Source of the DNA: a virus
DNA length: 42,571 nucleotides
IMG/VR virus record: IMGVR_UViG_3300030102_002597
Location: 4,525-47,095 of that record
Direction: 5' to 3' (one strand)
Shown: positions 9,420-42,465 of the stretch, in pieces
Position numbering within the stretch: the stretch's first letter is position 1
Layout: the number at the start of each line of letters is the position of its first letter
Position numbers and translations under genes: made by a program
The notes under the pieces: generated by a model
What the model saw: the letters and a program-made list of their open reading frames with translations, nothing else
What the model was told of the DNA's origin: nothing
Databases searched by the model: none

Positions 9420-9458
9420 TTTTTTCACTTCCTTTCTCCTATCTCACCCGAAAAACGA

Positions 9459-19379: not shown

Positions 19380-20790
19380 CGGCCCACCCCAATCTATTCT
19401 GCCATATCTCACCATCTAGGATTATTATATTCTCCCTATACTCCTTGGTTGCTTGTACCGAAAGTGCAAGGGCAATCACCATGTCGTCATGCGCTCCGAG
19501 GCTCTCCATCTTGCCATTGTCTAGCATGGTGAACATGGATAATTCATTCAACAGAGTATTCATGTGTCTGCGCGTTGCACCCTCATCCTTGTATGGTATG
19601 AGGAGATGCCTTTGCTCAAAGTGCAGTTGCAGAGAATGTATGAGTGCCTCTTTCTTCATGCGACTCATGTTGAAGGGCTTGATTGGCAAGTCGCTGATTT
19701 CCTGCAACACTTGGTTGAATGCCATAGCGAAGTTGTTTGTCTCTAACTCGATGATGACCGGATTGAAGCGTGTGTTCAATTCTATGATTTTGCTAATCTG
19801 TTGATTGAAGTCCATGTTCTTCTCATGGTGAACGTGAACCACTCTCTTGTGCCTGTTCTCATCCATGCCTATGACCATCATGCAAGTGTAGTCTGCTCGC
19901 CTATCTGCGCTAATTGCAGGATCCCAACCGATGTAGTAGTTCAATGACTCATCAGGGTCAGGATAGTATGAGAGCGAGAGCGAGTCCTCCTTGACGTTCT
20001 CAAGAACCTCCTCTGGAAACAGACTTGCTTCGCTTGCTATCGGCTTGCATAGATACTCACGAGTGAATGCTATCGAGGTCATCTCCCCCCTTCTCGTATT
20101 GAGTGCATCGAGATTCCATCGCTCAGGCCATAGTGGCTCTCCCGTCGCTTCGTTGATTGCAGGGTACTCATTGACGCAGTACCCCTCAAGCCCTCTCAGT
20201 TCTGCGTACAAATCGGTGAAAGAGAAAGGTGTCCCCACCACGCAGAGTTGAGCCGTGTGATGGAGGACTGGCAATAGTGCGGTATAGAACCATGTGGATA
20301 TGGATTTCAATTGGGTGTCTGCTTCGCTAGACAGTATGTCGTCAAGGATAACGATGTCAGGGTGCGCCCCACGAACCGCTTTGCCTATCGACATGGCTCG
20401 TATGGATGACTTGTTGGTCATCTTGAACAACTGCTTCGCCCATCCTCTCTTTGGCTTGAGGTGTACCAGAGCGGGTATGGTCATGATTAACTCATCCAGT
20501 TTAGCCATGTGATCTATGGACTGGTGCTGACTGTGGCTGAAAAACAGAACCTCTGTGCCGGGGTTGTATGCCATCTTCCATAGAAGATATACTCTAAAGA
20601 AGACGGACTTGCCATGGTCACGACTGGCTATGACGCATATCTTGTTGTGCTTCTCTGCGTTCTCATACCACTCCTTGTGGAAGTCTGCCAATTGGAAACC
20701 GCATATGTCCTCAAAGAAGAAGCGGAAGTCGCGTTGCCCCATCTCCCAATCGACTTTGCTTGTCAGTTCAAGCATCGTTTCATTCGGCAT
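19372..20790 (-). CDS. terL: Terminase large subunit (DNA packaging ATPase/nuclease)
   Basis: The 472-residue protein is the packaging motor. The ATPase domain shows a Walker A-like ASRDHGKS (55-62), a Walker B IVILDD (146-151), and a coupling region VVGTPFSFTDLY (184-194). The nuclease domain begins with YYIGWDPAIS (Asp 290), continues with VIIELETNN (near 345-352) and ends with AHDDMVIALALS near the C-terminus, giving the expected acidic metal ligands. The length is typical. It overlaps the preceding gene by 11 bases and the following gene by 8. The motifs and order TerL, then portal, then protease, then capsid make this the firmest call in the window. Confidence 0.93.
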   Translation of the reverse strand: MPNETMLELTSKVDWEMGQRDFRFFFEDICGFQLADFHKEWYENAEKHNKICVIASRDHGKSVFFRVYLLWKMAYNPGTEVLFFSHSQHQSIDHMAKLDELIMTIPALVHLKPKRGWAKQLFKMTNKSSIRAMSIGKAVRGAHPDIVILDDILSSEADTQLKSISTWFYTALLPVLHHTAQLCVVGTPFSFTDLYAELRGLEGYCVNEYPAINEATGEPLWPERWNLDALNTRRGEMTSIAFTREYLCKPIASEASLFPEEVLENVKEDSLSLSYYPDPDESLNYYIGWDPAISADRRADYTCMMVIGMDENRHKRVVHVHHEKNMDFNQQISKIIELNTRFNPVIIELETNNFAMAFNQVLQEISDLPIKPFNMSRMKKEALIHSLQLHFEQRHLLIPYKDEGATRRHMNTLLNELSMFTMLDNGKMESLGAHDDMVIALALSVQATKEYRENIIILDGEIWQNRLGWADA

Positions 20791-23233
20791 CTTGACCCCA
20801 TCCTGATGGCAACAGACTCATGTTGTCGCCAACGGGATTGCTCTTGGCAAACACGGATGCGGGTAACAACGAAAGGTCATCTCCATCGACCGTATCGAAA
20901 CCCTGCAAGTTCACCTCTTGCTCGACGGGAGCCTCCTCGGTCACAAAATCCTCGATGACCGATTTCTCAATCTCTGCTTCTGGTGCGGGTTCCTTCCTCA
21001 AGTCGAAAGCATTCTGCGAGTAAAAGGGATTGGCGAAGGGATTCTCCACTACTGTCCATGGTTCTGACCGTTCAAGAATGTCTCTTCTTTCAACAGGCTG
21101 TCCCTCTGGTACGACAGCAGGAATAGGTGCAGGAGCAGGTGCAGGAGGCGGACTTGAGAATGCAGAGACATTTGGCCCTCTCCTCTGATACAATCCTTCC
21201 ACTTCATCAGCCGCGCCCTCATACTGCTCATTCGTGAGTTTGCCTCTTGTCTTTGGATTGAAATTGGCTCCGCGCTGTATTCTTTGTATGGCAAGTCTCC
21301 TTCGATTGGCTCTGTCTTGCTCTATTCCATCGTCAGTCATACGCATACCACCGGACCGGATGGAGTTGATGAAGTCGCCAAGTCTGCCCTTCTCTATGTC
21401 CTGTCGAACTCTCAAGGTGGAGGCCATTTCGTCTGACTTCCTATACTGATTTGCTAAATCTTTGAGATCTCTTTCTCCCTGTCTCCTGACTCTTCGGTTG
21501 TATAACGCACCCCCGATGTTGGACAGGCCTCCTGTCAAGAGTCCTAGACCCACGTTCGTAGCCATTCCTCCTGTCTTGGATGCCCTCTGAGCGGCATCGG
21601 CAGTCAAGGCGTCCAAGGCCAAGTTCTGCTGTGGTTGAGCAGGAGCCTGTCCGCCACCCTGCCCCCCACCACCGTACACGTTTACTGTGTTGCCAGATGA
21701 GTTACTTGATGCTTGTGCGATGTTGCCCCCGCCTAAGTTACCTGCTACTTGACCGCCTTGCCCCCCGCCACCGCCTCCTGTGTTGCGGTACTGCTCAGGA
21801 GCGAGATCGAAGAGACTGCCGCCTTGTCCCCCACCACCCCCTCCTCCGGTGTTCGTTCCCGCAGGAGTCATCGGTTGTGGAGTGATTGTAGTGGTCTGCT
21901 TCTGCTCGCCGGTCTGACCATTGAGTTCAACGGTCTGTTTGACATCCGGCTGACCATCTCCGTCCATGTCTTGCCCTCCTTGAGGAGCGGGCTGACTGCT
22001 AGGGTCATAGGAATATGCGGCTTGTTGCTCAGGGGTCAGACCTTGCATGGCAGAGTCTCTTCGTCCTAGCGTCTGATTCTGATCGTAAAGACGCCTCATG
22101 TCCTTGGACTCCTGCGCCCCGATACCGTACCTGCTCTGCTGTCCTCTTCTCGTAGTCCCTACGATTCCTTGCTCCCTGAGTCCTTGAAGACCACCCTCGC
22201 GGACTCCTGATGCGAAGTTACTAATTCGTCCACCGACACCCGGAAGATATGCTCCTCCTCTGTTAGCCCCACCTTGGGAACCATACATGGCCCCTTGAAC
22301 AGCACCAGAGACTTGACCGGGCAGTTGCGAAGCCATGTTCATGGCTCCACGGCCTAGATTCATGGCTCCACGACCTGCCTGACCCGCTAAATTCATGGCT
22401 CCACGTCCTGCTTGGCCCGCCGCACCCATGACTCCTGCACCTATCTCTCCGGCTTTCTTCTTAGCCGCTTGCATCATGCCGGGTACGCGACCCGCGACAT
22501 TGGAGAATGTTCCCATTGCACCTTGACCCATTCTCTTGGCGGCATCTAGCATACTTCCGCCCAACTCGGAGGCCTTGGCCCCCATTTGACCTGCCTTTTC
22601 CTTGGCAGAGTCCATCATCTCAGAACCCTTTGCCCGTGCAGTTCCTACTCCACGACCAAGGCTTCTAGCGGCTCCCATCATGGCGTCATCGGTTCTTTGT
22701 CCTAATTCACCCATCTTTTCCTTGGCGGCAGTAGCGGCATCGCCAATCATCTGACCTGCTTCGGACAGGCCCTCACTCGCTTTGGCCCCCATCCTCTGGC
22801 GGAAGTCGCCTACCTGTTGCCTGACTTTGCCGAACTGCTGTCTCATCTTGTCACCCATGCTTGGGTTGCCCGCCTCTCTGCGATCGAATCTGTCCTTGAT
22901 ATACTGTGCAGGGTTATCGACGCCTTTCGATGAGCCATCGACGTTGCTTTGTGCGTTATTCTGGTTTACTATCTGATCGACCTTTGCACGGTCGGCGTCT
23001 GTTATCCGTCCTCTCAATCGGGTGGCTCTTGCCGCTTGGTCTTCATTCCTTTGATCCATTGTTGCTTCTGCCCTTGCGGCGGCACGAGCATCCCTCGCTT
23101 GCATATCATCCGTGAAAGCAGTTTTACCGCTCAACCTTGCCTTTGTCATATGCCATGACTCTATTGCCTTGGCTATGTCCTCTCTTGCCCCCTCTAGGGA
23201 ATGCAAACGAGCGGCTAGAACCAGACTATTCAT
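20780..23233 (-). CDS. Long low-complexity protein with amphipathic Ala/Gly/Met/Lys repeats and glycine-rich tracts
   Basis: The 817-residue protein has no recognised family. Residues ~130-310 are Ala/Gly/Met/Lys/Arg-rich and periodic (KEKAGQMGAKASELGGSM, AGQAGRGAMNLAGQAGRGAM), reminiscent of LEA-type or apolipoprotein-like amphipathic helices. Residues ~420-540 are very glycine- and glutamine-rich, with poly-Gly runs, and are probably disordered. A basic helical segment follows, and the C-terminus is acidic. It lies directly before the terminase and after two other long disordered genes. It may be an internal virion or ejection protein, or a membrane-interacting one; this is inferred from composition only. 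Confidence 0.65.
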   Translation of the reverse strand: MNSLVLAARLHSLEGAREDIAKAIESWHMTKARLSGKTAFTDDMQARDARAAARAEATMDQRNEDQAARATRLRGRITDADRAKVDQIVNQNNAQSNVDGSSKGVDNPAQYIKDRFDRREAGNPSMGDKMRQQFGKVRQQVGDFRQRMGAKASEGLSEAGQMIGDAATAAKEKMGELGQRTDDAMMGAARSLGRGVGTARAKGSEMMDSAKEKAGQMGAKASELGGSMLDAAKRMGQGAMGTFSNVAGRVPGMMQAAKKKAGEIGAGVMGAAGQAGRGAMNLAGQAGRGAMNLGRGAMNMASQLPGQVSGAVQGAMYGSQGGANRGGAYLPGVGGRISNFASGVREGGLQGLREQGIVGTTRRGQQSRYGIGAQESKDMRRLYDQNQTLGRRDSAMQGLTPEQQAAYSYDPSSQPAPQGGQDMDGDGQPDVKQTVELNGQTGEQKQTTTITPQPMTPAGTNTGGGGGGGQGGSLFDLAPEQYRNTGGGGGGQGGQVAGNLGGGNIAQASSNSSGNTVNVYGGGGQGGGQAPAQPQQNLALDALTADAAQRASKTGGMATNVGLGLLTGGLSNIGGALYNRRVRRQGERDLKDLANQYRKSDEMASTLRVRQDIEKGRLGDFINSIRSGGMRMTDDGIEQDRANRRRLAIQRIQRGANFNPKTRGKLTNEQYEGAADEVEGLYQRRGPNVSAFSSPPPAPAPAPIPAVVPEGQPVERRDILERSEPWTVVENPFANPFYSQNAFDLRKEPAPEAEIEKSVIEDFVTEEAPVEQEVNLQGFDTVDGDDLSLLPASVFAKSNPVGDNMSLLPSGWGQDAE
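22339..22410 (-). repeat. Short tandem repeat in the low-complexity gene
   Basis: TTCATGGCTCCACG or a close variant recurs three times on the plus strand at about 20-33 base spacing, encoding repeats of GRGAMN on the minus strand. This suggests recent local duplication within the Ala/Gly-rich region. Confidence 0.65.
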
Positions 23234-30020: not shown

Positions 30021-30752
30021 TCAGAGACTTTCAATCAACTTTATCATCACCTTCTCGACATTCATTCCGTGTTGTGCAGATATAGCCTCAACATCGGCTT
30101 GGATGCCCGCTTTTCTCAATCTTCGCAACTCCTGTCTGAACGGATAAACGATGGGGTGTTCTCTCTGCAAACCATTGTCCCAGAGATATTGCGCTTGTGG
30201 AGTCCACCAGATGTCCATTTTGTTGATTAGAAAGCAGAACATATCGGGTCTGTAACCCGCCTTTGCATTTTTCCGTGCTTTTCTGCTGAGAGACTGAGGG
30301 TAATGCTTGCCAACGATAGCATCGACAAGATACGACAGAGATGCGACGGACTCTTGTGTGAATTGAGGATAGTTGAGGACTCTATGATCGATGATGAAGA
30401 AAACCACGTTTGGACGACGAATGAACATATCTTCGACCCATAGGCTTCGGAATTGGGTCTGCCCTCCGATGTCCACGCTAGAGACAGGATGTCTCTCCGT
30501 CTTCCACTTGATTTGATGACGATGTGCCGTTGGTAAGACATAGTATCCGTTCTGCCTAGCATGAGTCGTTCTGAACTCAAGGGGTATCGGCTCTATATCA
30601 CCGGGAACGGTAAGATACTGGTCTAAGGTAGTCTTGCCTGTCATGCTTGGGCCATAGACACCTATGCGGTGTGGTTTCAGAGTCCTATACAGTTTCTTTA
30701 TCGCGTTGAAGGAGGCAATTACGATGTGACCTGCCAACATTGCCGAACTCAT
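30021..30752 (-). CDS. Arf/Ras-like small GTPase
   Basis: The 243-residue protein carries all G motifs in order: P-loop GPSMTGKTT at 34-42 (G1), Thr 62-63 in the switch region (G2), VDIGGQ at 93-98 (G3), NKMD at 177-180 (G4) and SAQ at 225-227 (G5-like). DxGGQ, rather than DTAGQ, is the signature of the Arf/SR-beta/G-alpha branch. The N-terminal 30 residues could form an amphipathic helix before the P-loop (IVIASFNAIKKLYRTL), as in Arf proteins that bind membranes. It lies between small membrane-protein genes and a zinc-protein gene. GTP-dependent membrane or assembly control is inferred. Such a GTPase is unusual in a tailed virus. Confidence 0.85.
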   Translation of the reverse strand: MSSAMLAGHIVIASFNAIKKLYRTLKPHRIGVYGPSMTGKTTLDQYLTVPGDIEPIPLEFRTTHARQNGYYVLPTAHRHQIKWKTERHPVSSVDIGGQTQFRSLWVEDMFIRRPNVVFFIIDHRVLNYPQFTQESVASLSYLVDAIVGKHYPQSLSRKARKNAKAGYRPDMFCFLINKMDIWWTPQAQYLWDNGLQREHPIVYPFRQELRRLRKAGIQADVEAISAQHGMNVEKVMIKLIESL

Positions 30753-31636: not shown

Positions 31637-32917
31637 CTAAGTGACTCTTCGACCTAAGACTGTTTGCTTGTAATCGGGTTCTTGTTGGAATCTCATGTTT
31701 GCCATGGCGGCTTCTAACGCTTGCCGAGAGAGTTTAGTTTGTTCTTTTGTCCGGCCATGATGCCTATAACCAATGTCTGTTATGGAATGACAGGACGTGC
31801 AACCTTTCATGCCAGTTCTAGGATCTATAACTTCTTTGCACTCAGAAGGATTTCCGGGTTCCGAGGCAGGACATACCTGAATGCCTTCTCCTTTGTGTCC
31901 CGGTTCAAGATAGGAAGTGGCGGATATTTGAGGATGAGAAAGAATGTCTCGGATAAGATCGGCGTGTCTGCCCGTATATTTGGGTATGCTGTCTCGTGTT
32001 TCCTGACCGGGAAGAGACAACTTGAAATGAAGATTTTCAGGGAACACGTCGTCCTTCCAATTTCTCGCTTGTAAGAATTCATGCACGGCAGGATATTGTC
32101 GTGTCGAAAGCCAATGCGATGAACCGGCCAACTCCCATGGCCTCTGATTGTTCAGAACATCTGTAATCATCGAGAGTTCACCGGCGTCTTTAGCATCGCC
32201 CGCCGCAAAGATGCGAGTTTTGGCAGGTTGGTCTTTTCCACCTGCATATGGTCTTGCGGCATCGAACAAGGACTCATCCAATCCCGAAGCCACACGAACA
32301 GGATCGGTTAGTATCCTATCTAGGATGTTGTATTGCCTCGCTTGAGCAGGGTTAGAAGCCATGTTGCGCTCTCTAGCATAGCAAGCCTCACACGCACCAC
32401 AAGTCTTAGTTTTACAGGCAATTGCAGGTTTATCTAAAAGACTAATTCCTTCTAATTTACCCGGCTTGCCATAACCACCTACGGCCTCGGTCGCTGAACT
32501 CATAGAGTCTATGTCTGCTATCCCCTCATTTGCCATGAACTCGGACCATGGGACAATCTCTCGCCCCTCAAGCGGATAGCCGGTTATGTTCCTGTCTCTA
32601 GGACTACCTAGCAATTGATTCAACAAATCCCTGTTTTCGTCCAAATCCATGAAGTCGTAAATGTCACGATTGCCTCCACCGTAATATTGGTCTTTTGGTC
32701 TTTCAGGCCCAAGTAGTCCTTTCATTGGTCCCGTCGTGTATTTTCTCCATGGATATGGAACTGCACCGGGCATTTCCCCTCCATACCTCTTAGACCAGAA
32801 CATCATTTGACCGGGCTTGCCCCAATCTTTCTTGTCCGATTCCGTGAGTCTGGCTTTGATTAAATCCCACGCTTGGTCGAAAACGCTACCGCTCACGACC
32901 GTTGGTATTACAACCAT
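31637..32917 (-). CDS. GP88-like cysteine-rich phage protein with the shared F-D-x-A-W peptide
   Basis: The 426-residue protein has the shared peptide near its start (VFDQAWDLIKA, residues 12-22). The body resembles the phage Gene-product-88-like family: a cysteine cluster at 168, 173, 176 and 179 (CGACEACYARERN), FAAGDAKD near 237-244, STRQYPAVHEFL near 271-282, and a second cluster at 349, 360, 373 and 376 (CTSCHS). Two Cys clusters suggest bound metal or an iron-sulfur centre; the biochemical role of the family is not established to my knowledge. It stands next to the methyltransferase genes. The start could also be the GTG at residue 8. Confidence 0.7.
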   Translation of the reverse strand: MVVIPTVVSGSVFDQAWDLIKARLTESDKKDWGKPGQMMFWSKRYGGEMPGAVPYPWRKYTTGPMKGLLGPERPKDQYYGGGNRDIYDFMDLDENRDLLNQLLGSPRDRNITGYPLEGREIVPWSEFMANEGIADIDSMSSATEAVGGYGKPGKLEGISLLDKPAIACKTKTCGACEACYARERNMASNPAQARQYNILDRILTDPVRVASGLDESLFDAARPYAGGKDQPAKTRIFAAGDAKDAGELSMITDVLNNQRPWELAGSSHWLSTRQYPAVHEFLQARNWKDDVFPENLHFKLSLPGQETRDSIPKYTGRHADLIRDILSHPQISATSYLEPGHKGEGIQVCPASEPGNPSECKEVIDPRTGMKGCTSCHSITDIGYRHHGRTKEQTKLSRQALEAAMANMRFQQEPDYKQTVLGRRVT

Positions 32918-33056: not shown

Positions 33057-34367
33057 TCAATCATTCACAAAGTCACCCAAAGTGGGATACTCAGATAAGA
33101 GGTCTTTCCAAGAGCCACGAGAGAATCTCTTTTTTCGCCCCATACCGGGCCAATCAATGTCTCTGGTAGCAAGCATCTCTATCACGTTCTTGCCGCCTTC
33201 CTTACTTGTCTTGATGTTCCGAGGCCAAGGATGTATGTCGAAGCCTTCGTCTAACAGAGTATCTGTTATTCCATGCAACACCTCTCGTGAGTCTGGATCG
33301 ACTAGGTAGTTGGAGTAAACCACCGGCCCCTGACTGGCTATTGCGGCACTCAAAGTGTCTGCTTGCAGTTGGTCTTCCTCGTCAGCCGTCGATTTGTCTC
33401 CATAACTGAATGTTCTCTTGGCATACGGCGGGTCATAGTATGAGAAGATGTCATCCCTCTCATTCAATTCTCGTGAGACATCCTGCATGGGTTGCGTTCT
33501 CAAGTCCCAATTTCTCATAAGAGGAGCCATGGCCCTGAAATCCATGGGAATGGAGGGTTCTCCTCGGCCTCCTGTAACCTTCCTCAAACCCGGTTTCATG
33601 ATGCCGAAGCCCTTGTTCCACTCAGGTGTGTTCTTGTAATTCATGTGTCCTTGGAATGCTCTGCTGTTGGCAGAGGTGAATAACTCAGCAAGCCTCATTT
33701 TTTCGTCAAGACTTAGTTCCTCCCCAAGAATATCCCGTTTGTACCTGATTGCATTGGCCCTGTCCACTATGTCCTGCAAGGCCTCTTTGGTATTCACAGG
33801 GACGCCTCTTTCATCAACAGGTCCGAATGAGGGGACGTTCAAACCGATCTGAGCCATTCTTCCGACATTGATGGGGTCTGGGTTGATGTCCGTGGCTATG
33901 CCTTGTGGGGAATTGAGTGCGTTTAGCATGGACAGGCTACCTCCAAACGCTTCGTAAGGAATGTGCGTTTCTCTATACGGATGGAACATTTCTCTGAAAT
34001 ATGGCCCTAGTTGCTGTTTCCCACCCCACCAATTGAGTATCTGAGGCAGACCACCAAGGCTCCTGTCCCTCAGACCGGGGACTCTCTGCATCAGTATGTT
34101 CGGCCCACCACTCCCCTCTAGCATCATCTGCCTGAGTGGCTTCTTCCTGTTCCTACCTGCAAACTTCACAGTAGGCTTACGAAGTTCTGGCTTGTCTCCT
34201 TGGTCGGCCCTCCATGCATCAAATTGTGCCATAACGCTGTCCAAGTTTGGCCTAATGTCATCGAAGTCATCACCTTCCACTCCTTCAAATTTGTAGGCCT
34301 TCATAACATCCCATGCATCGTCGAAGAAAGTATAACCCTGCCGATCTTCAATACCCATGTCTATCAC
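33057..34367 (-). CDS. D12-class adenine-N6 DNA methyltransferase (Dam-like) with the shared peptide
   Basis: The 436-residue protein carries the shared peptide near its start (FFDDAWDVMKAYK, residues 14-26), after a GTG start in a GTGA overlap (ATG alternative at 34358). The methyltransferase has D12/Dam-class motifs: WWGGKQQL (113-120), YEAFGGSLSM with motif I-like FGG (138-147), TDINP (159-163) and the catalytic YDPPY (311-315). An insert of about 140 residues separates the two halves, the target-recognition region. The likely reaction is methylation of adenine N6 in viral or host DNA, for protection from restriction. The leading peptide suggests it may travel in the particle. Next to it is a second DPPY protein. 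Confidence 0.85.
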   Translation of the reverse strand: MIDMGIEDRQGYTFFDDAWDVMKAYKFEGVEGDDFDDIRPNLDSVMAQFDAWRADQGDKPELRKPTVKFAGRNRKKPLRQMMLEGSGGPNILMQRVPGLRDRSLGGLPQILNWWGGKQQLGPYFREMFHPYRETHIPYEAFGGSLSMLNALNSPQGIATDINPDPINVGRMAQIGLNVPSFGPVDERGVPVNTKEALQDIVDRANAIRYKRDILGEELSLDEKMRLAELFTSANSRAFQGHMNYKNTPEWNKGFGIMKPGLRKVTGGRGEPSIPMDFRAMAPLMRNWDLRTQPMQDVSRELNERDDIFSYYDPPYAKRTFSYGDKSTADEEDQLQADTLSAAIASQGPVVYSNYLVDPDSREVLHGITDTLLDEGFDIHPWPRNIKTSKEGGKNVIEMLATRDIDWPGMGRKKRFSRGSWKDLLSEYPTLGDFVND

Positions 34368-35575
34368 TTTCCTCGACGGACACCAAGAGTTTCCCCTACA
34401 ACTCCTTTCTTACTTTGAGCCAGATTATCCTTTCTTTGCAGGGGAACAATCTCATCGAAGAGATTTCTTGCTTTTACCTCTCTAAGATAATCTGGCACAG
34501 CCGAATTGAACGCTAATACTGTGTTACCCATATCTCCAAGCATACCCAATCTGTCTAGCAAAGCACCTTGGTCTATTAGCCCATGCTCCCCTTCTTCTCC
34601 TTGATATGGAGGATCTGAGAGAATAGTTGCGTCTTTTACGGGATTTTCTATAAAATCATCAAGCGTATCCATCAAATCGCCTTGTCTGAATCGGTAGTCT
34701 TTATCTCGCCACTCCTGACCCCATGGATAGTAAGTCCACTCATCATCAACATCTGCTTTGAAACGCTCAGGTTTCTGAGGGCGAATCATATTAGTCGTAG
34801 TAGGTTTTCTTCCCGGCCACTCTGGAATTACCTTTTCTGCCATGATGCTCTCTAGGAGTTTTCCTGTGGGCGTATTTGCAATCTTCCTGCCAAATGAACG
34901 TGGTGGTATTGTTAGTTTACCCCCTCCGGGTTGTCTCCAAAGACCTGCTTGCATTTGAGGTTGCAACATGAGAGCCAATTGAACGGTCCTATCATCATAG
35001 AGTCCTTGTTCTATCCTATCGTTGTATTCTCTCTGCATCAATCTGAATCTCAACGGCACGTTCCAAATCTGATCTTTGTCAAGCCCATGCCCGCCTGTTG
35101 CATCATGAAAATCTCGTGCCATCTGTTCGGTAACACTACCTACATTCACCATTTTTCCTTTTGAAGACGGGACACCAATTGGGACTAGCAATGGATCATC
35201 CACTCTCATGGTGTATTCATCAGCAGGATTCCATGAGAATCTGTCAGGGTTTCTCATTATCGCATTGTATATAGCGGGTTTTATTGGTTGAATATCCCCG
35301 CCTTCAAAAGAATCGGGGCGCAAGATTCCTGTTGAACCTAGATAACCCATGGTTGGATCTCGGAGATGACCTCCCGTGCCACCATATCTCCTCAGTAAAT
35401 CTGTATATTTTGAGGGATTTTTTACGCCCGCCATGCCGGAAAATATGGGAGGCATTGGAAGACTTGTATCATCTAATGCTCTTAATGCAGAGTCGATTGA
35501 CGGTTGTCCCTTTGATTTTGCCACTTTCCAACCATAATCAAACGCCTTTAGGAAGACATCGGAAGCCGTAGGCAT
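34364..35575 (-). CDS. Second DPPY-containing methyltransferase-like protein with a variant shared peptide
   Basis: The 403-residue protein starts MPTASDVFLKAFDYGWKVAK; FDYGWKVAKSK at 12-22 is a divergent form of the shared peptide. Residues ~30-270 are unassigned. The C-terminal ~130 residues hold FRQGDLMDTLDDFIEN, ILSDPPYQGEEG (DPPY at 321-324), TVLAFNSAVPDYL and a basic end. This matches the catalytic half of an amino-methyltransferase; the SAM-binding FxGxG motif is not obvious, so it could be split with, or dependent on, the neighbouring D12 enzyme. The two genes overlap by 4 bases. Activity is uncertain. Confidence 0.68.
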   Translation of the reverse strand: MPTASDVFLKAFDYGWKVAKSKGQPSIDSALRALDDTSLPMPPIFSGMAGVKNPSKYTDLLRRYGGTGGHLRDPTMGYLGSTGILRPDSFEGGDIQPIKPAIYNAIMRNPDRFSWNPADEYTMRVDDPLLVPIGVPSSKGKMVNVGSVTEQMARDFHDATGGHGLDKDQIWNVPLRFRLMQREYNDRIEQGLYDDRTVQLALMLQPQMQAGLWRQPGGGKLTIPPRSFGRKIANTPTGKLLESIMAEKVIPEWPGRKPTTTNMIRPQKPERFKADVDDEWTYYPWGQEWRDKDYRFRQGDLMDTLDDFIENPVKDATILSDPPYQGEEGEHGLIDQGALLDRLGMLGDMGNTVLAFNSAVPDYLREVKARNLFDEIVPLQRKDNLAQSKKGVVGETLGVRRGK

Positions 35576-35576
35576 A

Positions 35577-36443
35577 TTATACCGTTAAAGTCAATTGTTC
35601 TTTGAGTTTGCTAACTACAAAATCTTCTATCGCTAGGAGGTTCTCCGGGTAAATCCCACAGTCCAAACCATTCTTCAAGCCCCAATACACCAGTTCCTCG
35701 GTGGACAGGTTGCCACCAGAGCCGTCCACGAAGGGACAACCACCAAGACCCATGATGCAGGAGTCGAACTCGCGTACTCCCATGAAGAAAGCAGAGTCCA
35801 ACTTCTCGGTCATCGGCACGTCATTCTCACCATGATGCAAGTGCAAAGCAATGTTGGATGTGATTTCTGCCTTTCTTATGAGTCGAACCACGTCTTCAAT
35901 ATGCTCGCCCGTCGCTTGGCCCGCAGTATCGGAGAGAACGATGGTGTCTCCGAAAGTCTCTGCCCAACGAAGGGACTCGACCAACTTGTTCTCTTCGATT
36001 TCGCCATCAATAGGACAGCCGAAAACGCAACTGAGATAGACGCGAACATCCCTCTTTGGTATGTCTTTCATGATTTCGCAGTAGTTGGAGAACACATTGG
36101 CACGGGTGTCGTTGTGGTTGCTGATGGTGAAGCCCTCGCTAGGTGACATGAATATGTTGAATCTCTCGACACCTCGTTGCTTCGCTTTCTCCATTCCTTT
36201 CTTGTTGGGAATCAGAATTGCCAATTCGCAATCCGGGTGCTTCTGCATGGCTCTTTTGAGAACCAACTCGGAGTCTGCCATGTTGGGGACTAACTGTGGG
36301 TGAACGAAAGCACCCACCTCTATGCGTTTTATGCCCGCATTGACAATCATGTCGATTAGTGTAATCTTGTCTGCGGTGGGTATGATGGTGTCCAGACCCT
36401 GTAAGCCATCTCTAGGAGTGACTTCATAGATCTGGAAGTCCAT
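35577..36443 (-). CDS. HMG-CoA-lyase-like DRE-TIM metallolyase
   Basis: The 288-residue protein is near full length for this family. It shows the N-terminal VTPRDGLQ (residues 8-15, catalytic Arg/Asp), EVGAFVHPQLVPNMAD, LSCVFGCPIDGE, LSDTAGQATG, the metal-binding HLHHG (His pair conserved, though HDT of the family reads HHG) and GLGGCPFVDGSGGN with the catalytic loop Cys. HMG-CoA lyase cleaves 3-hydroxy-3-methylglutaryl-CoA to acetyl-CoA and acetoacetate in leucine breakdown; a related substrate is possible. It carries no leading F-D-x-A-W peptide. It lies between viral methyltransferase and tagged-cargo genes, so it looks like an auxiliary metabolic gene rather than a chromosomal neighbour. 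Function is by homology only. Confidence 0.85.
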   Translation of the reverse strand: MDFQIYEVTPRDGLQGLDTIIPTADKITLIDMIVNAGIKRIEVGAFVHPQLVPNMADSELVLKRAMQKHPDCELAILIPNKKGMEKAKQRGVERFNIFMSPSEGFTISNHNDTRANVFSNYCEIMKDIPKRDVRVYLSCVFGCPIDGEIEENKLVESLRWAETFGDTIVLSDTAGQATGEHIEDVVRLIRKAEITSNIALHLHHGENDVPMTEKLDSAFFMGVREFDSCIMGLGGCPFVDGSGGNLSTEELVYWGLKNGLDCGIYPENLLAIEDFVVSKLKEQLTLTV

Positions 36444-37087: not shown

Positions 37088-37633
37088 TCACTCTGTTTGG
37101 AACTCATCACCCTCGTATGCGGAGGGTAATCCCAACTCTCTCATGAGTCTTCTTTGTTGATTTGGGTCCATTGCGACGGGAGATCGTTTCATGCGTTTGA
37201 CCTCTGCCCTCTCCTTGTTGTCCTTAGCGGCTCTCTTCGACCTGAGCGTTCGTCCTTTCATGAATGACCATATGGTTTCAAAGACATCGTTGCTCGTTTT
37301 GAGTGAACTAGGATCGTTTTTCTCTTTCTCCTCTTCCCTTTTCCTTCTTTCTTCACTAAACGAATAGACGGGCTTGCTCGCATCGCTTGATGTCATGGCG
37401 GAATCTGCCTTGGAGATGTTGTCCTCTCCCCTAATGAAAATCATCGCATCTGGATGGTCTTCCTCTTCATGCTCAAGGCGCGAGTGAGTCTTCATGTCAT
37501 CTCTCCTTGAGTCAAGAGCGACTCGATTCATTTTGCAGTTGATTGCTTGGTGGTTGCCCATGTTCGGGAACCGGCACTCCTCATGCGGGTTCGCTCCGCA
37601 GAGTTGGCAGTTGTCTGACATATCGAATGGCAT
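37088..37633 (-). CDS. Zinc-knuckle protein with an internal copy of the shared peptide
   Basis: I chose the ATG at 37633, which overlaps the previous stop by one base (TGATG). The 181-residue protein starts with Cys motifs (CQLCG at 9-13, then C20 and C33), followed by a His/Glu/Asp-rich part and a Glu/Lys/Arg helix. At residues 115-128 it carries DVFETIWSFMKGR, a variant of the peptide that most neighbours have at their N-terminus. A basic region follows (KGRTLRSKRAAKDNKERAEV). Here the peptide is internal, suggesting a gene fusion or an internal tag. Confidence 0.62.
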   Translation of the reverse strand: MPFDMSDNCQLCGANPHEECRFPNMGNHQAINCKMNRVALDSRRDDMKTHSRLEHEEEDHPDAMIFIRGEDNISKADSAMTSSDASKPVYSFSEERRKREEEKEKNDPSSLKTSNDVFETIWSFMKGRTLRSKRAAKDNKERAEVKRMKRSPVAMDPNQQRRLMRELGLPSAYEGDEFQTE

Positions 37634-37824
37634 CAGACATACCTCCAAGCACCGTCGAAGGACTTCTTCATGTCTGCCGGATGTTTCCCTTCCTTCTTTA
37701 GGTCTTTGTAGCATTGGCACATGGGTTCTTTAGCAGAGCATTTCATTATTCCTTTCTTCATACAGGCACAGGGATTGCTCTCTGTGGCTCCGCAACAGCA
37801 TTCTTTTTTCTTTAATTTAGTCAT
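37633..37824 (-). CDS. Cysteine-rich 63-residue protein ending in a variant of the shared peptide
   Basis: I chose the ATG at 37824 because it overlaps the preceding stop by one base; the frame extends to 37872. The short protein has eight Cys residues (9-11, 19, 21, 29, 36, 38), so it probably binds metal. It ends KKSFDGAWRYV, where FDGAW matches the shared peptide but sits at the C-terminus. The gene is tightly coupled on both sides. Function unknown. Confidence 0.55.
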   Translation of the reverse strand: MTKLKKKECCCGATESNPCACMKKGIMKCSAKEPMCQCYKDLKKEGKHPADMKKSFDGAWRYV

Positions 37825-38411
37825 TAACACTTCCACCTCCGTCTTGCGGCCTTGCCTCTTGGTCCCTTCCAACTCCTGCTTCGGGCGCAGAAGGACTTCT
37901 TTCTTGCCGCATCTTTGCCTTTCGGGTTATCGCTTGTCACGGGTGGTTTTAGATTTGACCCGGTAGCCTTGTTATATTTTCTTCGACCCTTTGCAGTAAG
38001 ACCGCCGCCCGCTTTGACGGACTGCTTCTCCCCCCTGCCTACTGATAGATTAGGCCCTGCCTTGATTAGCATGGCTTTTGACAAGAGGTTGCAAGTATAG
38101 CAGTCACAGGATTTCACCATCGTCGGCTTCCCCCCTACTCCTTGTGGCTTGCTCCTCTTCCTCTTTGTAGCCGCCTTCTTCTCCTTGGCACTCATCGATC
38201 CTGCTGTTTTCGGGGTCTTAGAACTGACTTTCTTTGACGGACGGCATTTCGGATACCCTCTGCTCGATTTGTCAGCATCGTCCCTGCCGCACGGCGGGTG
38301 CTTGCCATCCTTGTCTTTGCGCGAGACATCAACCCACTTCTCCTTGAACCAGTCTCTGAGGTCTTTCTCCTCTTTGATGAGGCCTGAGAAAGGAAGTGTC
38401 GCGGCATTCAT
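37824..38411 (-). CDS. DUF5872/DUF6321-like basic protein of marine viruses
   Basis: I chose the ATG at 38411, which forms an ATGA overlap with the previous gene; the frame extends to 38483. The ~195-residue protein has an N-terminal segment (LRDWFKEKWVDVSRKDKDG) and PCGRDDADK and YPKCRPSKK motifs of DUF5872-like proteins. Its C-terminal half is of DUF6321 type (GLTAKGRRKYNKATGSNLKP, KKSFCARSRSW, RGKAARRRW). Both are found in marine phages and giant viruses; their biochemical role is not established to my knowledge. A CDCYTC motif is between them. High Lys/Arg content fits DNA binding in the particle. The protein itself lacks the F-x-x-AW peptide, but the gene before it has it. Confidence 0.72.
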   Translation of the reverse strand: MNAATLPFSGLIKEEKDLRDWFKEKWVDVSRKDKDGKHPPCGRDDADKSSRGYPKCRPSKKVSSKTPKTAGSMSAKEKKAATKRKRSKPQGVGGKPTMVKSCDCYTCNLLSKAMLIKAGPNLSVGRGEKQSVKAGGGLTAKGRRKYNKATGSNLKPPVTSDNPKGKDAARKKSFCARSRSWKGPRGKAARRRWKC

Positions 38412-38629
38412 TTCTTCCCCTTCTTCCCCTTTGACTTCTTCTTCCAACCGCCACCCTTGCTCTTGTACCACTTGGAGGCCCATGCGTTAGCGTATGCGGA
38501 GGGATATACATCGAATTTAGCACGAGCCTTTGACTTGGCCTGTGACCAGAGGCTCGGATTCGTAGGGGCGTTGTCTCCCTTCTCGTCACTCTTCATTAGT
38601 TCCCATGCTGTTTCAAACGTGTTATTCAT
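38408..38629 (-). CDS. Tagged DUF5872/DUF6321-related small basic protein
   Basis: The 73-residue protein begins MNNTFETAWELMKSDEKG, the shared peptide, and continues with SQAKSKARAKFDVYPSAYAN and WASKWYKSKGGGWKK, similar to the basic domain seen in DUF5872/6321-like proteins of marine viruses. The C-terminus is a Lys/Gly tail. AGGTGA precedes the ATG. The gene overlaps the next by 4 bases. It pairs the peptide with a DNA-binding-like domain, as expected for a packaged basic protein. Confidence 0.68.
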   Translation of the reverse strand: MNNTFETAWELMKSDEKGDNAPTNPSLWSQAKSKARAKFDVYPSAYANAWASKWYKSKGGGWKKKSKGKKGKK

Positions 38630-38639
38630 TTTGTTTCAC

Positions 38640-38813
38640 CTATTTTTCTGCGCTGTATGGAGGGCATTGTTCACATCGTATGTTTTTTGAATTTCCAAAA
38701 AAGGATCTGGGGTCTGGAACCTGTATAACTCCGGTTCCTTTGCAACTTTTACAATCCTTTTGAGGGCCGCCCGTTTCCTTAACGACATCCCAAGCCTTGT
38801 TGAATGCTGTCAT
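38640..38813 (-). CDS. Tagged 57-residue zinc-ribbon protein
   Basis: I chose the ATG at 38813, which gives MTAFNKAWDVVKETGGPQ; the frame extends to 38933 but that part has no gene-like character. After the peptide comes a zinc ribbon: CKSCKGTG, then RCEQC, about 22 residues apart. The motif is DnaJ-like in the CxxCxGxG form. The peptide in this position sets the start. Function unknown; nucleic-acid or protein binding is possible. Confidence 0.62.
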   Translation of the reverse strand: MTAFNKAWDVVKETGGPQKDCKSCKGTGVIQVPDPRSFFGNSKNIRCEQCPPYSAEK

Positions 38814-38814
38814 A

Positions 38815-39285
38815 TTATTCCACCTCTTCGGGATGGGATGCATAATCGACCCGACCAAATGGAGATGGTGCGGGCATTTTCTCTGCTGTAACCATCCCTC
38901 GCCTGTTATCTCTCGCAAACTCAACAGCCTCATCTCTTAGCGAATCCAATCCCTGTTTAGTTTTAGGATGATTCATCACTCTATCAATGGTCGGGGGTTT
39001 TCCTCCTCGGATTTGACTCCCTGCCACTTGACTACCCAAATCTCTTGCTCTGTCAGCAAAATCTCCTTCTAACGGCACATTACCAGTCATGAAAACCTCT
39101 TTGTCATTAGCACGAGTAGGCCTCGGATAATTCATGTAACTGCCACGCCTAGTTCGTTGTGTGCCATCCCTGTTTATATCCGAATCAAGTGATGAGCCGA
39201 AATCACGATCCTTTGTCCTTGCATACTGTGGAACCGGGCTACCTTTTGTGAGGAACGCCCAAGCCTTGTTGAAAATGTCACTCAT
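38815..39285 (-). CDS. Tagged protein, unknown body
   Basis: I chose the ATG at 39285, giving MSDIFNKAWAFLTKGSPVPQ (156 residues); the frame extends further, to 39369, into the next gene. Behind the peptide the sequence is hydrophilic with Arg/Asp/Gly-rich stretches (GSSLDSDINRDGTQRTRRGS) and a helical part (GLDSLRDEAVEFARDN). No family is recognised. It overlaps the upstream zinc-ribbon gene by 8 bases. Confidence 0.6.
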   Translation of the reverse strand: MSDIFNKAWAFLTKGSPVPQYARTKDRDFGSSLDSDINRDGTQRTRRGSYMNYPRPTRANDKEVFMTGNVPLEGDFADRARDLGSQVAGSQIRGGKPPTIDRVMNHPKTKQGLDSLRDEAVEFARDNRRGMVTAEKMPAPSPFGRVDYASHPEEVE

Positions 39286-39457
39286 ATGGGTCATCCTCTC
39301 CGTGCTTGTATCTATGTCCGCAGTCGTTACAGGTGTAACTCCATTCGCGGGGAGCATCGAATTCGTCATCCTCTAGTCTCTTGTTGCATCCTTTGCAATT
39401 TCGACCAGACCAATCGTAACTCTTTGCGATTTGCCAAGCCTTGCTGAATGCTGTCAT
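39278..39457 (-). CDS. Tagged 59-residue zinc-ribbon protein
   Basis: I translated this short frame from the minus strand. It starts MTAFSKAWQIAKSYDWSG, the shared peptide, and has two Cys pairs (CKGC at 21-24 and CNDCG at 43-47), a zinc ribbon, with an acidic end (HGEDDPYE). It overlaps the next gene by 8 bases and is 7 bases after the previous one, so it fits the array and is a real gene despite its size. Confidence 0.65.
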   Translation of the reverse strand: MTAFSKAWQIAKSYDWSGRNCKGCNKRLEDDEFDAPREWSYTCNDCGHRYKHGEDDPYE

Positions 39458-39464
39458 CTCAATA

Positions 39465-39857
39465 TCACCCTCTATAAGGACGGAAAGCCGGTTTCTGTAA
39501 ATTGCCTTGATAAATTGGATTTGGCGATCCAGTAGTGAATATCCCTAATGACATTATTTCACGGAGAGTTTCTTCGGCACTCTTTGCACCCCTTGCTTCC
39601 ATGTAATCCATAATGATGTCTTGTACCGCACTAAGTTTGCTATCCATCCTCATTCCTTCACCTACATTATGTTCATGCACTTCTCTGTTGTAGTCCTTCG
39701 TATGGGCTTCGTCAGATAGGAACTCATTCAAATTCTTGGGGCCGGAGAGGTTTCCGCCCGTCCTCATGTCTCCCGCTTCATTCATCATCCTATTTGGATT
39801 GCCTTGACTGTCAAATTTGTATTTGGTCAAGTCCCAAGCCTTGTCAAATAAAGTCAC
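39465..39857 (-). CDS. Tagged protein, unknown body
   Basis: I chose the GTG at 39857, which gives MTLFDKAWDLTKYKFDSQ in line with its neighbours and has AAGGTGG about 6 bases before it; the frame extends to 39866. The ~130-residue protein has a hydrophilic body with a helix (VQDIIMDYMEARGAKSAEET) and a short C-terminal basic end. No known domain is seen. Confidence 0.6.
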   Translation of the reverse strand: MTLFDKAWDLTKYKFDSQGNPNRMMNEAGDMRTGGNLSGPKNLNEFLSDEAHTKDYNREVHEHNVGEGMRMDSKLSAVQDIIMDYMEARGAKSAEETLREIMSLGIFTTGSPNPIYQGNLQKPAFRPYRG

Positions 39858-39872
39858 AGAAACCACCTTTCT

Positions 39873-40076
39873 TCATCTGAGGGCCATGGCTCCATAATTC
39901 ATCTTAATATCTTCCATTATTTTTGCAATTTCGTCCGCATGATCATGTTCGCCAAATTCATCTAAACACCGAAATGCATCACTCAAACTCCTCATGCATT
40001 CCATATATTCTCTGTTCTCTTCTTCGGACATCATGTTCTTGGAAATGTTCCAAGCGGTATCGAAGGTATCTGCCAT
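39873..40076 (-). CDS. Tagged 67-residue helical protein
   Basis: It starts MADTFDTAWNISKNMMSEEE. The rest is one acidic helix-rich segment (CMRSLSDAFRCLDEFGEHDH). No family is recognised. It is one of the shortest tagged genes, so the peptide is a quarter of the protein. Confidence 0.58.
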   Translation of the reverse strand: MADTFDTAWNISKNMMSEEENREYMECMRSLSDAFRCLDEFGEHDHADEIAKIMEDIKMNYGAMALR

Positions 40077-40109
40077 GACCGAGGGTATTTTGACAATCCT
40101 TTATTGAGT

Positions 40110-40403
40110 TTAAGGTTCATACTCCGGGTTGTCTGTCTCCCACCTTATGGTCTGACAGGCATGGCAGTATGGCGAGTCCGACAAGGCCGAGTTCTTCTCG
40201 CAATCTATGCACATACGCCATGGCTTGCCCGGAACATCACCCGGATTGGGCTTGAGATTCCTACGAGGATCGACTTGCTTCCTCCCCATCGACTCCTTGT
40301 ATTTCTCGTACCATTCCTCCCCATGCCTCTCTATCAGGATTCTCTTGGCCCTCTCGCGGGCATCCTCCTTGACGAGACTCCACGCTTGGTCGAACGCTGT
40401 CAT
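40110..40403 (-). CDS. Tagged zinc-ribbon protein
   Basis: I chose the ATG at 40403, which forms an ATGA overlap with the upstream gene and gives MTAFDQAWSLVKEDARE. A basic helix follows (ERAKRILIERHGEEWYEKYK), then a zinc ribbon (CIDCEKNS, then YCHACQ) near the C-terminus. About 97 residues. The DNA around its start is almost identical to that of the 40400-40933 gene, indicating duplication of the leader. Confidence 0.65.
   Translation of the reverse strand: MTAFDQAWSLVKEDARERAKRILIERHGEEWYEKYKESMGRKQVDPRRNLKPNPGDVPGKPWRMCIDCEKNSALSDSPYCHACQTIRWETDNPEYEP
40381..40403 (-). repeat. Duplicated DNA encoding the shared peptide, copy 1
   Basis: From GCTTGGTCGAACGCTGTCAT (plus strand, ending at 40403) this stretch is identical to 40914-40933. 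It encodes MTAFDQA at the start of two different genes. Several other starts have close variants. Confidence 0.75.
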
Positions 40404-40933
40404 CTCCAATCCCTCAAGTATGGTTTCAAGGCTTCTTGCTGTTCTGCACGATTGCCACTAAATGAACTTGGTTCATCATAGCGATAGGAGTGGATGCTTC
40501 TATCTCTCGACATATCAATCAAATCCTCTTCGGTAATCGGAATAATCTCCGAAGGGAGTTCATACTCATCTTCCAAGAAGTCCAAGCCCCACACATTACC
40601 TGCAACTCCCTGCCCCTCATGCCCCTCATCGGGTTCCAAATATTCGTTGTAGTCCGATTTTGCCCTTCTGAGTTGTGGTTCGCCCTCCCTTATGGGTTCA
40701 TACATATTAGAACCCAATATCGCATAGAGAAGTGCCAAAGACTTGTCAGGTGTCCAGAAGAAACTGTCTGGATCGCCCTTTTTACCCCCTTGATACAGGT
40801 AATCATGCGGGCCTGACATGGGGTGAAACTCGTCAAGTTCCAAATCATCCTCCTCTCTTCTGTATTTTTTAGGAGTTTCATGTATGTAAAATGGCATTTT
40901 CACCAAATCCCATGCTTGGTCGAACGCTGTCAT
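40400..40933 (-). CDS. Tagged protein with weak ADP-ribosyltransferase-like features
   Basis: The 177-residue protein starts MTAFDQAWDLVKMPFYIHET. Its middle (YLYQGGKKGDPDSFFWTPDK, then SLALLYAILGSN) and end (LPSEIIPITEEDLIDMS) recall the fold of ADP-ribosyltransferase-like phage proteins: a short strand with Y-x-G, then F-W-T-P-D, then an E-x-I strand. The catalytic residues cannot be named with confidence. If correct, it would resemble T4 Alt, a packaged ADP-ribosyltransferase. Treat this as a lead only. Confidence 0.6.
   Translation of the reverse strand: MTAFDQAWDLVKMPFYIHETPKKYRREEDDLELDEFHPMSGPHDYLYQGGKKGDPDSFFWTPDKSLALLYAILGSNMYEPIREGEPQLRRAKSDYNEYLEPDEGHEGQGVAGNVWGLDFLEDEYELPSEIIPITEEDLIDMSRDRSIHSYRYDEPSSFSGNRAEQQEALKPYLRDWR
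40911..40933 (-). repeat. Duplicated DNA encoding the shared peptide, copy 2
   Basis: Identical over 20 bases to 40384-40403; the flanks differ. The bodies of the two genes are unrelated, so only the leader is shared. Confidence 0.75.
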
Positions 40934-41148
40934 CGTAAATCCCTCATTTTGTCTTTTTCTGCATCTGAAAATCCATATGGGTCATGTATGCCATCAATAG
41001 CCGATTCAACGTGTTCTTCGGGGTCATAACAATCGGTGCAAATAATCATATTTCCATCTAAATCGACAAAATCATCTGCTTCTTTGCCGCATATATCGCA
41101 ATAATACGGAGATTTCACCAAATCCCATGCTCGGTCAAACGCTGTCAT
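40930..41148 (-). CDS. Tagged zinc-ribbon protein
   Basis: I chose the ATG at 41148 by the peptide MTAFDRAWDLVKSPYYCD; the frame extends to 41172. The ~72-residue protein has a zinc ribbon directly after it (YCDICGKEADDF, then CTDCYDPEE) and an acidic/basic helical end (SDAEKDKMRDLR). It overlaps both neighbours by a few bases. Function unknown. Confidence 0.65.
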   Translation of the reverse strand: MTAFDRAWDLVKSPYYCDICGKEADDFVDLDGNMIICTDCYDPEEHVESAIDGIHDPYGFSDAEKDKMRDLR

Positions 41149-41623
41149 AAACTCTCCATCCTTGTGCCTCAAGCAACTCGTTCATCTGTTGGCTATCTCG
41201 GACATTTGCCCACCTTCCCGCCATCAAGTCAGGGTTTTCTTTCTCCCATTGACTTACCATAGAACCAAACAGATTCGGTTCATAGAAAAGTTGGCCTGTC
41301 TCATCTGCAACAGGATCGTGGTGAATTACGGCGTGTTGTGGGAAGTTCGGACTTCCGGCCATACTTTTGCCCCCCTTAATCCACCAATCCTTGCCTTTAC
41401 CGTATCTGCCCTCGGTGTCCAAGCCTCCAAAACCATACCAACCCCCTTTTCGCTTAAACGCCGTTGAACCATCTTTTTGTGTGATTCTCGATGTGCCGGT
41501 CGATTGATAGTATGGTCTATTTCGATACATGACAACCTTTTTGCCGTCTAGTGTCCCTATCGGCTGTGGTGTCGAACCATCGTTGTTTTTTACGATGTCC
41601 CATGCTCGGTCAAATACTGTCAT
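41135..41623 (-). CDS. Tagged protein, unknown body
   Basis: I chose the ATG at 41623, which forms an ATGA overlap with the upstream gene and gives MTVFDRAWDIVKNNDGST. The ~162-residue protein is rich in Gly, Trp and Tyr (GWYGFGGLDTEGRYGKGKDW) with a helical C-terminus (QQMNELLEAQGWRVYDSV). It contains FPQHAVIHHDPVADETGQ, and an ADP-ribosyltransferase-like or similar alpha/beta fold is conceivable but unsupported. Confidence 0.62.
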   Translation of the reverse strand: MTVFDRAWDIVKNNDGSTPQPIGTLDGKKVVMYRNRPYYQSTGTSRITQKDGSTAFKRKGGWYGFGGLDTEGRYGKGKDWWIKGGKSMAGSPNFPQHAVIHHDPVADETGQLFYEPNLFGSMVSQWEKENPDLMAGRWANVRDSQQMNELLEAQGWRVYDSV

Positions 41624-42465
41624 TGCCAACCACTCGCTCCAAATCTGTCCCACCATTCCTGTAATTCCATGGGTTCGTATGACATTTCATGGATGGGCCG
41701 CGACTCATCGTCACCAGTATGCATGAAGGCCCATTGAGTGGGAAACTGGTATCTTCTTGGGTATCCTTCCCGATTCATCCCCCCCACGCCCTCAGAGCCG
41801 AAGAGTTGCATGACCTTTGCTCGCAAATCATCACGAATGCCCATTTCATGGGCTATTGAGGCCGCTTTTGGAGGATATAAACCCGAAGAAGTCATTTCGG
41901 GCCAAACCGCATAGTCATAATCGGCATCCTGCATCCTCTCTGCAAAATTGCCTCTTCCACCGCCCCCCATGTAAATGTCATACAGTTCTGCGGGCGACAC
42001 ACCTGCGGCTTCTAGTCGTTCAAGGGCATCTGAGTTTTCTAAGTCAAATACTGGACTAACTCCATAACTCTGGCTTGATGTTGGAATTCTCAAGATACGA
42101 GATGGGTCGATTTCGGGCAAGCGATACGAATGAACAGGGCGAATGTTACCTCCGAATCGCTTATTGTCCCAACCCGCATACTGATCTGCGGTCATCCTCT
42201 GTGGAGAGAAGAATCGACCTATATCCGATTCATTACCCGCCCTGAACACCTCTTGGCCCGTGAAGGGCATTGTCGGTGCTAAATTCGTAGGGTCGTTCGT
42301 CTGTTGTAGGATGATTGGTGCTAATCTCCTAACCCAATCATCCGGTTCCTCGCCCATTTCTTCAGCAAATGAGCCATAGTATCCGGCATAGCGTTCTGCC
42401 AGTTCGTTCGCCTCATCCATGTCAATCGCCTTGACAACATCCCACGCTCGGTCAAAAATCGCCAT
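41620..42465 (-). CDS. Tagged protein with ADP-ribosyltransferase-like features
   Basis: The 281-residue protein begins MAIFDRAWDVVKAIDMDEAN. From about residue 70 the pattern EVFRAGNESDIGRFFSPQRM, then DQYAG, then VHSYRLPEIDPSRILRI and DYDYAVW resembles ADP-ribosyltransferase-like proteins: R-x-G strand, F-x-S/P-x-x-x-A helix, and a later acidic region. The catalytic Glu is not certain. A Gly-rich loop (YMGGGGRGNFAE) is near residue 170. ADP-ribosylation of host proteins on infection, as done by phage T4 Alt, is a plausible inference. Confidence 0.62.
   Translation of the reverse strand: MAIFDRAWDVVKAIDMDEANELAERYAGYYGSFAEEMGEEPDDWVRRLAPIILQQTNDPTNLAPTMPFTGQEVFRAGNESDIGRFFSPQRMTADQYAGWDNKRFGGNIRPVHSYRLPEIDPSRILRIPTSSQSYGVSPVFDLENSDALERLEAAGVSPAELYDIYMGGGGRGNFAERMQDADYDYAVWPEMTSSGLYPPKAASIAHEMGIRDDLRAKVMQLFGSEGVGGMNREGYPRRYQFPTQWAFMHTGDDESRPIHEMSYEPMELQEWWDRFGASGWQ

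Follow-up and report, generated by a model that had tools for sequence, protein, structure and literature searches.

A short peptide shared by unrelated proteins of a putative magrovirus as a candidate capsid-targeting signal

The virus and its head module

Poseidoniales are among the most abundant archaea of the surface ocean, and the magroviruses that infect them are uncultured, most of their genes having no known role. Here, we describe a nine-residue peptide, F[DNES]xAWx[hydrophobic]xK (hereafter, the tag), which lies near the start of a series of unrelated proteins encoded by IMG/VR virus record IMGVR_UViG_3300030102_002597, and which probably acts as a capsid-targeting signal. The window, i.e. 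the whole stretch of 42,571 nucleotides that was analysed, corresponds to bases 4525-47095 of this 47,095-base record. The typing of the record as a magrovirus of Poseidoniales appears to agree with the published feature profile of these viruses (PMC12999244, PMC10160649, PMC5332604): a Druskaviridae-related major capsid protein (MCP), a prohead serine protease, a replication module on the opposite strand and a genome of 90-110 kb. The assignment to Magrovirales rests on this profile, the window's own record being a 47-kb piece. The head module encodes an SU10-type capsid protein, a portal, a terminase and an S78 prohead protease (Peptidase_S78 match, 9459-10907), the last already predicted in a preliminary description made from the sequence alone. 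The MCPs of close relatives are 77-92% identical to that of the window, and the nearest named viruses by capsid protein are the haloarchaeal Druskaviridae, at about 32%. Complete-sized relatives have their structural and replication blocks on different strands, the latter block encoding a UvrD helicase, a TCP-1/cpn60 chaperonin and a PD-(D/E)XK nuclease.

Tag copies in the window and the proteins that bear them

The preliminary description listed 15 genes opening with the peptide, and scanning and translation found it in all of them: 13 have strict copies, which without exception lie close to gene starts on the minus strand, and two have variants. Shuffling of residues over six frames (300 runs) gave a mean of 0.013 strict matches and a maximum of 1. 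The strict copies nearest the end of the window are: FDRAWDVVK (42430-42456, F codon at 42456) in gene 41620-42465, which encodes 281 aa without a Pfam or PHROG match; FDRAWDIVK (41588-41614) in 41135-41623; FDRAWDLVK (41113-41139) in 40930-41148, a Cys-rich protein with weak zinc-finger matches; FDQAWDLVK (40898-40924) in 40400-40933; FDQAWSLVK (40368-40394) in the Cys-rich 40110-40403; FDTAWNISK (40038-40064) in 39873-40076; FDKAWDLTK (39822-39848) in 39465-39857, for which a GTG start at 39866 is an alternative; and FSKAWQIAK (39422-39448) in 39278-39457, again Cys-rich. The variant FNKAWAFLTK (39244-39273; gene 38815-39285, from the translation) stands between this gene and those bearing FNKAWDVVK (38778-38804; gene 38640-38813, with a weak DnaJ-type CxxCxGxG match) and FETAWELMK (38591-38617; gene 38408-38629, encoding the first half of DUF5872). 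The second variant, FDYGWKVAK (35516-35542), opens gene 34364-35575, whose homologues include one with a D12 methyltransferase match. Further strict copies are FDDAWDVMK (34299-34325; gene 33057-34367), FDQAWDLIK (32855-32881; gene 31637-32917) and FDTAWTVMK (16617-16643; gene 16140-16652). The last of these genes lies between the portal gene and p15769, and thus within the head module, as had been proposed, and it has a tagged homologue in a related record (G032). The internal or C-terminal variants noted in two more reading frames were also recovered by translation, as DVFETIWSFMK in the minus-strand open reading frame (ORF) 37088-37720 and as KKSFDGAWRYV at the end of the short ORF 37633-37872. 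The latter ORF contains a Cys-rich module (CCCGATE...CQCYKDLKK), and several relatives have the same module ahead of a tag that is internal or C-terminal.

Most of the bodies attached to these tags have no Pfam match. The Pfam domains that were found lie outside the tag: a D12 methyltransferase domain at residues 113-354 of the protein encoded by 33057-34367, a GP88 domain at residues 159-326 of that encoded by 31637-32917, and DUF5872 fragments in two ORFs. The methyltransferase and GP88 labels of the preliminary description were thus borne out, its zinc ribbons were matched only weakly, below the cut-off, and its ADP-ribosyltransferase-like label was not upheld, since the one body tested, that of 40400-40933, had no significant fold match in PDB or BFVD. 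An AlphaFold2 (AF2) model of this protein places the tag in a helix (residues 3-11), followed by low-confidence segments (13-26 and 31-40) and then a domain; the model of the D12 protein was unusable (predicted local distance difference test score, pLDDT, of 36). DUF5872 is divided over 38408-38629 and 37824-38483, with the tag on the first half only. A frameshift was rejected as the reading of this pair. The second ORF of relatives begins in another frame than the first; in several of these viruses, the overlap between the two keeps the same relative frame and has an ATGA stop/start, which makes two coupled genes likelier and suggests translational coupling.

Spread and constraint

A search of IMG/VR with a DNA pattern for the tag retrieved 50 stretches, with 3-17 copies on many contigs, all or nearly all of them on one strand, and the reversed pattern found no contig of that kind in the same database. 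The same scan of GTDB genomes yielded 22 stretches with a single match each, scattered over taxa, which by our own estimate would be about chance level, and no cellular carrier or host. Contigs with multiple tags carry the MCP or, when fragmentary, other genes of the module. Six viral contigs with a single match (L010, L013, L022, L037, L054 and L056) lack a related capsid protein and were taken as chance matches. The tag and the capsid type coincide, a co-occurrence that the preliminary description had proposed to test. No tag was detected in HVTV-1, even with one mismatch allowed. The peptide is confined to one virus group, and we found no description of it, or of such a tag in these viruses, in the open-access literature.

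When the lysine was left out of the search anchor, 346 unique copies were recovered from the window and its relatives, 320 of them N-terminal (no more than 25 residues from the start codon). The bodies of these 320 fall into 122 clusters by single linkage (71 singletons), so that the shared tag on unrelated bodies extends far beyond the 15 cases first listed. The peptide is not part of one globular domain common to its carriers, given the number of clusters, the Pfam domains outside the tag and the linker in the AF2 model. Of the N-terminal copies, 91% have a lysine at position 9, and the information content, 3.4 bits at this lysine, drops to 0.7, then 0.5, and about 0.1-0.3 beyond; the information in the tag ends at the lysine. 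In one body family, the tag residues F, D, A, W and K are invariant, as are the following P and a few body residues.

The 320 tags are encoded by 310 different DNA 27-mers: selection acts on the peptide, and synonymous variation is free. This observation bears on the idea of a translation-initiation or mRNA leader element, in favour of which 206 of the 346 copies begin exactly three codons after a start codon. Nearly every DNA version differs, however, and copies are found far from starts and at C-termini; a leader element has next to no probability and is refuted by these data.

Although most copies are N-terminal, as first described, that term proved too narrow, because internal, junction and C-terminal copies exist. 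ORFs with two to four tags were found in four relatives (G008, G010, G014 and G032), including a polyprotein-like ORF of 691 aa with four tags (G008:C1:68023-70095; also L087:8023-10092). The internal tags of this ORF have DFTASGD or a similar stretch before them. In GP88 homologues, the tag is N-terminal in the window, G001, G008 and G010, and at a fusion junction in G003 and G012; other GP88 homologues lack FDxAW and keep φ-φ-K (φ, hydrophobic) before the conserved body (e.g. GVLLK-ALGDPDEMFWW). The tag of D12 methyltransferases is N-terminal in the window and G007 and C-terminal in G020, and further tags lie at protein ends in G006, G011, G018, G030 and G031. Internal, repeated, junction and C-terminal copies, together with synonymous freedom, point to a portable short linear motif.

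The end of the tag and the predicted cleavage sites of head proteins

A matrix of tag positions 5-10 was scanned over the 30 untagged proteins of the window (10,299 hexamers). The top-ranked hexamer, with a score inside the range of the tags, is DLLKAD at residues 37-42 of the MCP (8256-9428), to be compared with the tag end D-L-V-K-A-D. This best match (9303-9320, minus strand) is a predicted prohead-protease site, DLLK/AD (the slash marking the predicted cut). DLLK[AS]D is conserved in 19 of the 19 MCPs of the clade and has the form [ED][LI]LKAD in a sister lineage, and HVTV-1 retains the first and last residues of K-A-D in its MCP. Two conserved φ-L-K motifs are found in the protease itself in both lineages, one in an N-terminus that otherwise varies and one where the catalytic domain ends. 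The corresponding predicted sites in the window, also on the minus strand, are FILK (10776-10790), with K44 invariant and L43 nearly so, and TILK/MD (10305-10322), with [IL]LK conserved in both lineages. The end of the tag therefore matches, in sequence, the predicted cleavage sites of both the MCP and the protease. In a test of N-terminal sites across head proteins, the outcome was mixed, so that φ-φ-K alone is not diagnostic and is not treated as main evidence.

The sister lineage was reached through a portal protein 49% identical to that of the window. It contains 53 N-terminal tags in 33 body clusters, all 53 with L-K at P2-P1, the two positions before the predicted cut. P2 is leucine in 33/33 body clusters of the sister lineage, versus 28/122 in the window's clade (Fisher 3e-17), and all six leucine codons are used. 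P2 is also leucine at the predicted MCP site, at the site at the end of the catalytic domain and at nearly all N-terminal sites of the protease in this lineage, and two sites with isoleucine at P2, in the scaffold linker of the window's clade, are missing from most of its members. A change throughout a lineage would be expected if the tags had a common reader, such as the protease, with phylogeny only partly controlled for in this comparison.

The tag is also linked to the structural strand. On contigs with both blocks, 67 of 443 ORFs on the structural strand are tagged, versus 3 of 297 on the opposite strand (Fisher 8e-13). Genes of the structural module are themselves tagged in relatives, in the p20780 and p25176 families. 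The former is represented in the window by 20780-23233 (minus strand), between the terminase gene and p23226. Six relatives of this gene have a strict tag and two more a variant, joined to the same conserved last ~90 residues of the product. The remainder of the protein is freely swapped from virus to virus, and its N-terminus is often tagged.

Comparison with known packaging systems

Encapsulins and microcompartments provide an example of short cargo-loading peptides that bring unrelated enzymes into a protein shell, these shells being cellular. The T4 head protease has the cleavage consensus (I/L)-x-E, and we know of no sequence relation between the tag and the T4 capsid-targeting sequence (CTS). 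The CTS is a short (~10 residues) N-terminal peptide on head-internal proteins, which are packaged and from which the head protease removes it (PMC7697877). The likeness consists in a short peptide common to otherwise unrelated proteins (here 320 copies in 122 clusters), but the predicted cut here follows φ-φ-K, the protease is of the S78 type, the bodies are far more numerous, and internal and C-terminal copies exist. The tag is unlikely to be a CTS by descent, from which it is set apart by the Peptidase_S78 match and the terminal lysine rather than by a sequence alignment; on the best reading, it would work like a CTS. In phage P1, an N-terminal signal of 30 residues from DarB is sufficient for the packaging of a reporter (PMC9024508), and the N-termini of DarA and the capsid protein are cleaved by the head protease (PMC12810830). 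Dar N-termini have no consensus (PMC9024508), whereas a single motif is common to all the proteins considered here. The T4 CTS and DarB may thus serve as working precedents. In SPN3US/phiKZ, a single prohead protease processes several head proteins, whose N-terminal propeptides are followed by a common site motif (PMC10052503). These propeptides are mostly long (20-254 residues) and the site is another one, in contrast to the ~12 residues with a conserved helix seen here. A cargo tag of this kind is not known to us from HK97, whose protease we take to belong to the S78 Pfam family. The capsid protein of HK97 is cut after a lysine (K103/S104; PMC10275583), as predicted here for the same family of proteases.

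A candidate load-and-release signal

A tag that is shared by unrelated proteins and ends like a likely capsid-protease site probably marks proteins loaded into the particle. We therefore consider it likely, from sequence comparisons, that the peptide is a magrovirus capsid-targeting (cargo-loading) signal joined to a maturation-protease site, as the preliminary description had proposed in part; the φ-φ-K/AD shared with the MCP, the sites in the protease, the strand, the tagged structural genes and the lineage change make this the best explanation. The tagged proteins would be made together with the structural genes, to judge from their strand. In the assembling prohead, the amphipathic helix F-D-x-A-W-x-φ-φ may then bind one shared partner, for which the inner face of the capsid protein and the protease/scaffold protein are the likeliest candidates, so that any body attached to the helix would be enclosed. 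The S78-type protease would cut after the lysine of the tag, as predicted for DLLK/AD in the MCP and for its own N-terminus (ILK/S), and the match between these sites suggests that the body is released inside the head. Together with the DNA, the bodies could then enter the next host; they include DNA methyltransferases, many unknowns, and zinc-finger-like and nuclease-like proteins. A stronger version, for which we see about even chances, would be a position-independent load-and-release code, in which one nine-residue motif and one protease cut suffice for cargo to be packed, processed and injected; up to ~20 unrelated proteins per genome, polyproteins included, would be served in this way, the cargo being exchangeable and the tag fixed.

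Several points weigh against a capsid-targeting signal. The capsid cleavage site is itself a prediction, with a variable P1' (A, M, E or S). A broad regular expression for the site shows N-terminal enrichment in p29031 as well, and none in p23226 or p25176. About 9% of the N-terminal tags and two C-terminal tags have no lysine, three ORFs on the opposite strand are tagged, and copying of tag DNA within genomes may account for part of the lineage pattern. To our knowledge, up to ~20 tagged genes per genome exceeds the packaged sets of T4 or P1. Furthermore, because the tag, the capsid type and the host group coincide, a receptor in the host is possible.

This coincidence is one reason to consider that docking might instead take place away from the capsid, the tag bringing effectors during infection to a partner such as a host protein, the chaperonin of the virus, or a replication or factory compartment. 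A short helix active at either terminus or within a protein would suit any docking motif, a chaperonin is encoded in 9 of the 10 records tested, and T4 propeptides can recruit chaperonins (PMC10052503). However, docking predicts neither that the tag should end like DLLK/AD of the MCP, with the same sites in the protease, nor that structural-module proteins should be tagged, and we regard it as rather unlikely. A tagged record of 93 kb (G007), perhaps an incomplete one, lacks a match to a chaperonin; the data neither exclude nor support the chaperonin as receptor. Common descent would dispense with a receptor altogether, the peptide being the relic of a duplicated family whose bodies diverged or were swapped and whose starts were kept by recombination. 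Tags on different bodies are indeed more alike within a genome than between genomes (none of 100 permutations as high), which fits a shared reader and also the copying of gene starts; such copying probably occurs, since neighbouring tags have DNA words in common, e.g. GACAAGGCTTGG. Active constraint is nevertheless needed for strong conservation of the peptide despite free synonymous change, for leucine at P2 in 33 sister clusters with all six codons, and for the C-terminal and junction copies, and descent without such constraint is thus improbable. Less probable still is a mere processing site that separates or trims proteins without targeting them to the head. The polyprotein-like ORFs with up to four tags, the junction tags and the GP88 homologues that keep φ-φ-K/A without FDxAW would all be in line with it, but F, A and W define the tag and FDxAW is not found at the MCP or protease sites, and cleavage at C-terminal tags would free nothing useful.

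What appears to be new in the case for a capsid-targeting signal is the end of the information at the lysine, the tag end matching the conserved MCP site DLLK/AD, a protease with the same φ-φ-K and the L-K of the sister lineage. If it is such a signal, a single motif would predict particle-carried proteins from sequence alone. It would single out candidate early effectors by the hundred, among them many orphans besides DNA methyltransferases, zinc proteins and nucleases, and would provide a ready-made cargo tag for the capsid of an archaeal tailed virus. Protease-released capsid targeting would then have arisen outside T4 and P1, and on a much larger scale.

Other genes of the window and its relatives

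An untagged gene at 35577-36443 encodes an HMG-CoA-lyase-like protein (PF00682) with homologues in at least 10 related records, and is possibly a metabolic gene. A conserved protein with a P-loop-like GPSMTGKT motif is encoded at 30021-30752 and also in two distant records (G016 and G021); its neighbours are small proteins with possible membrane segments. Homologues of p14991 in L118 and L128 have an N-terminal low-complexity run, RYATTRYATTRYATT, before a conserved coiled-coil-like part.

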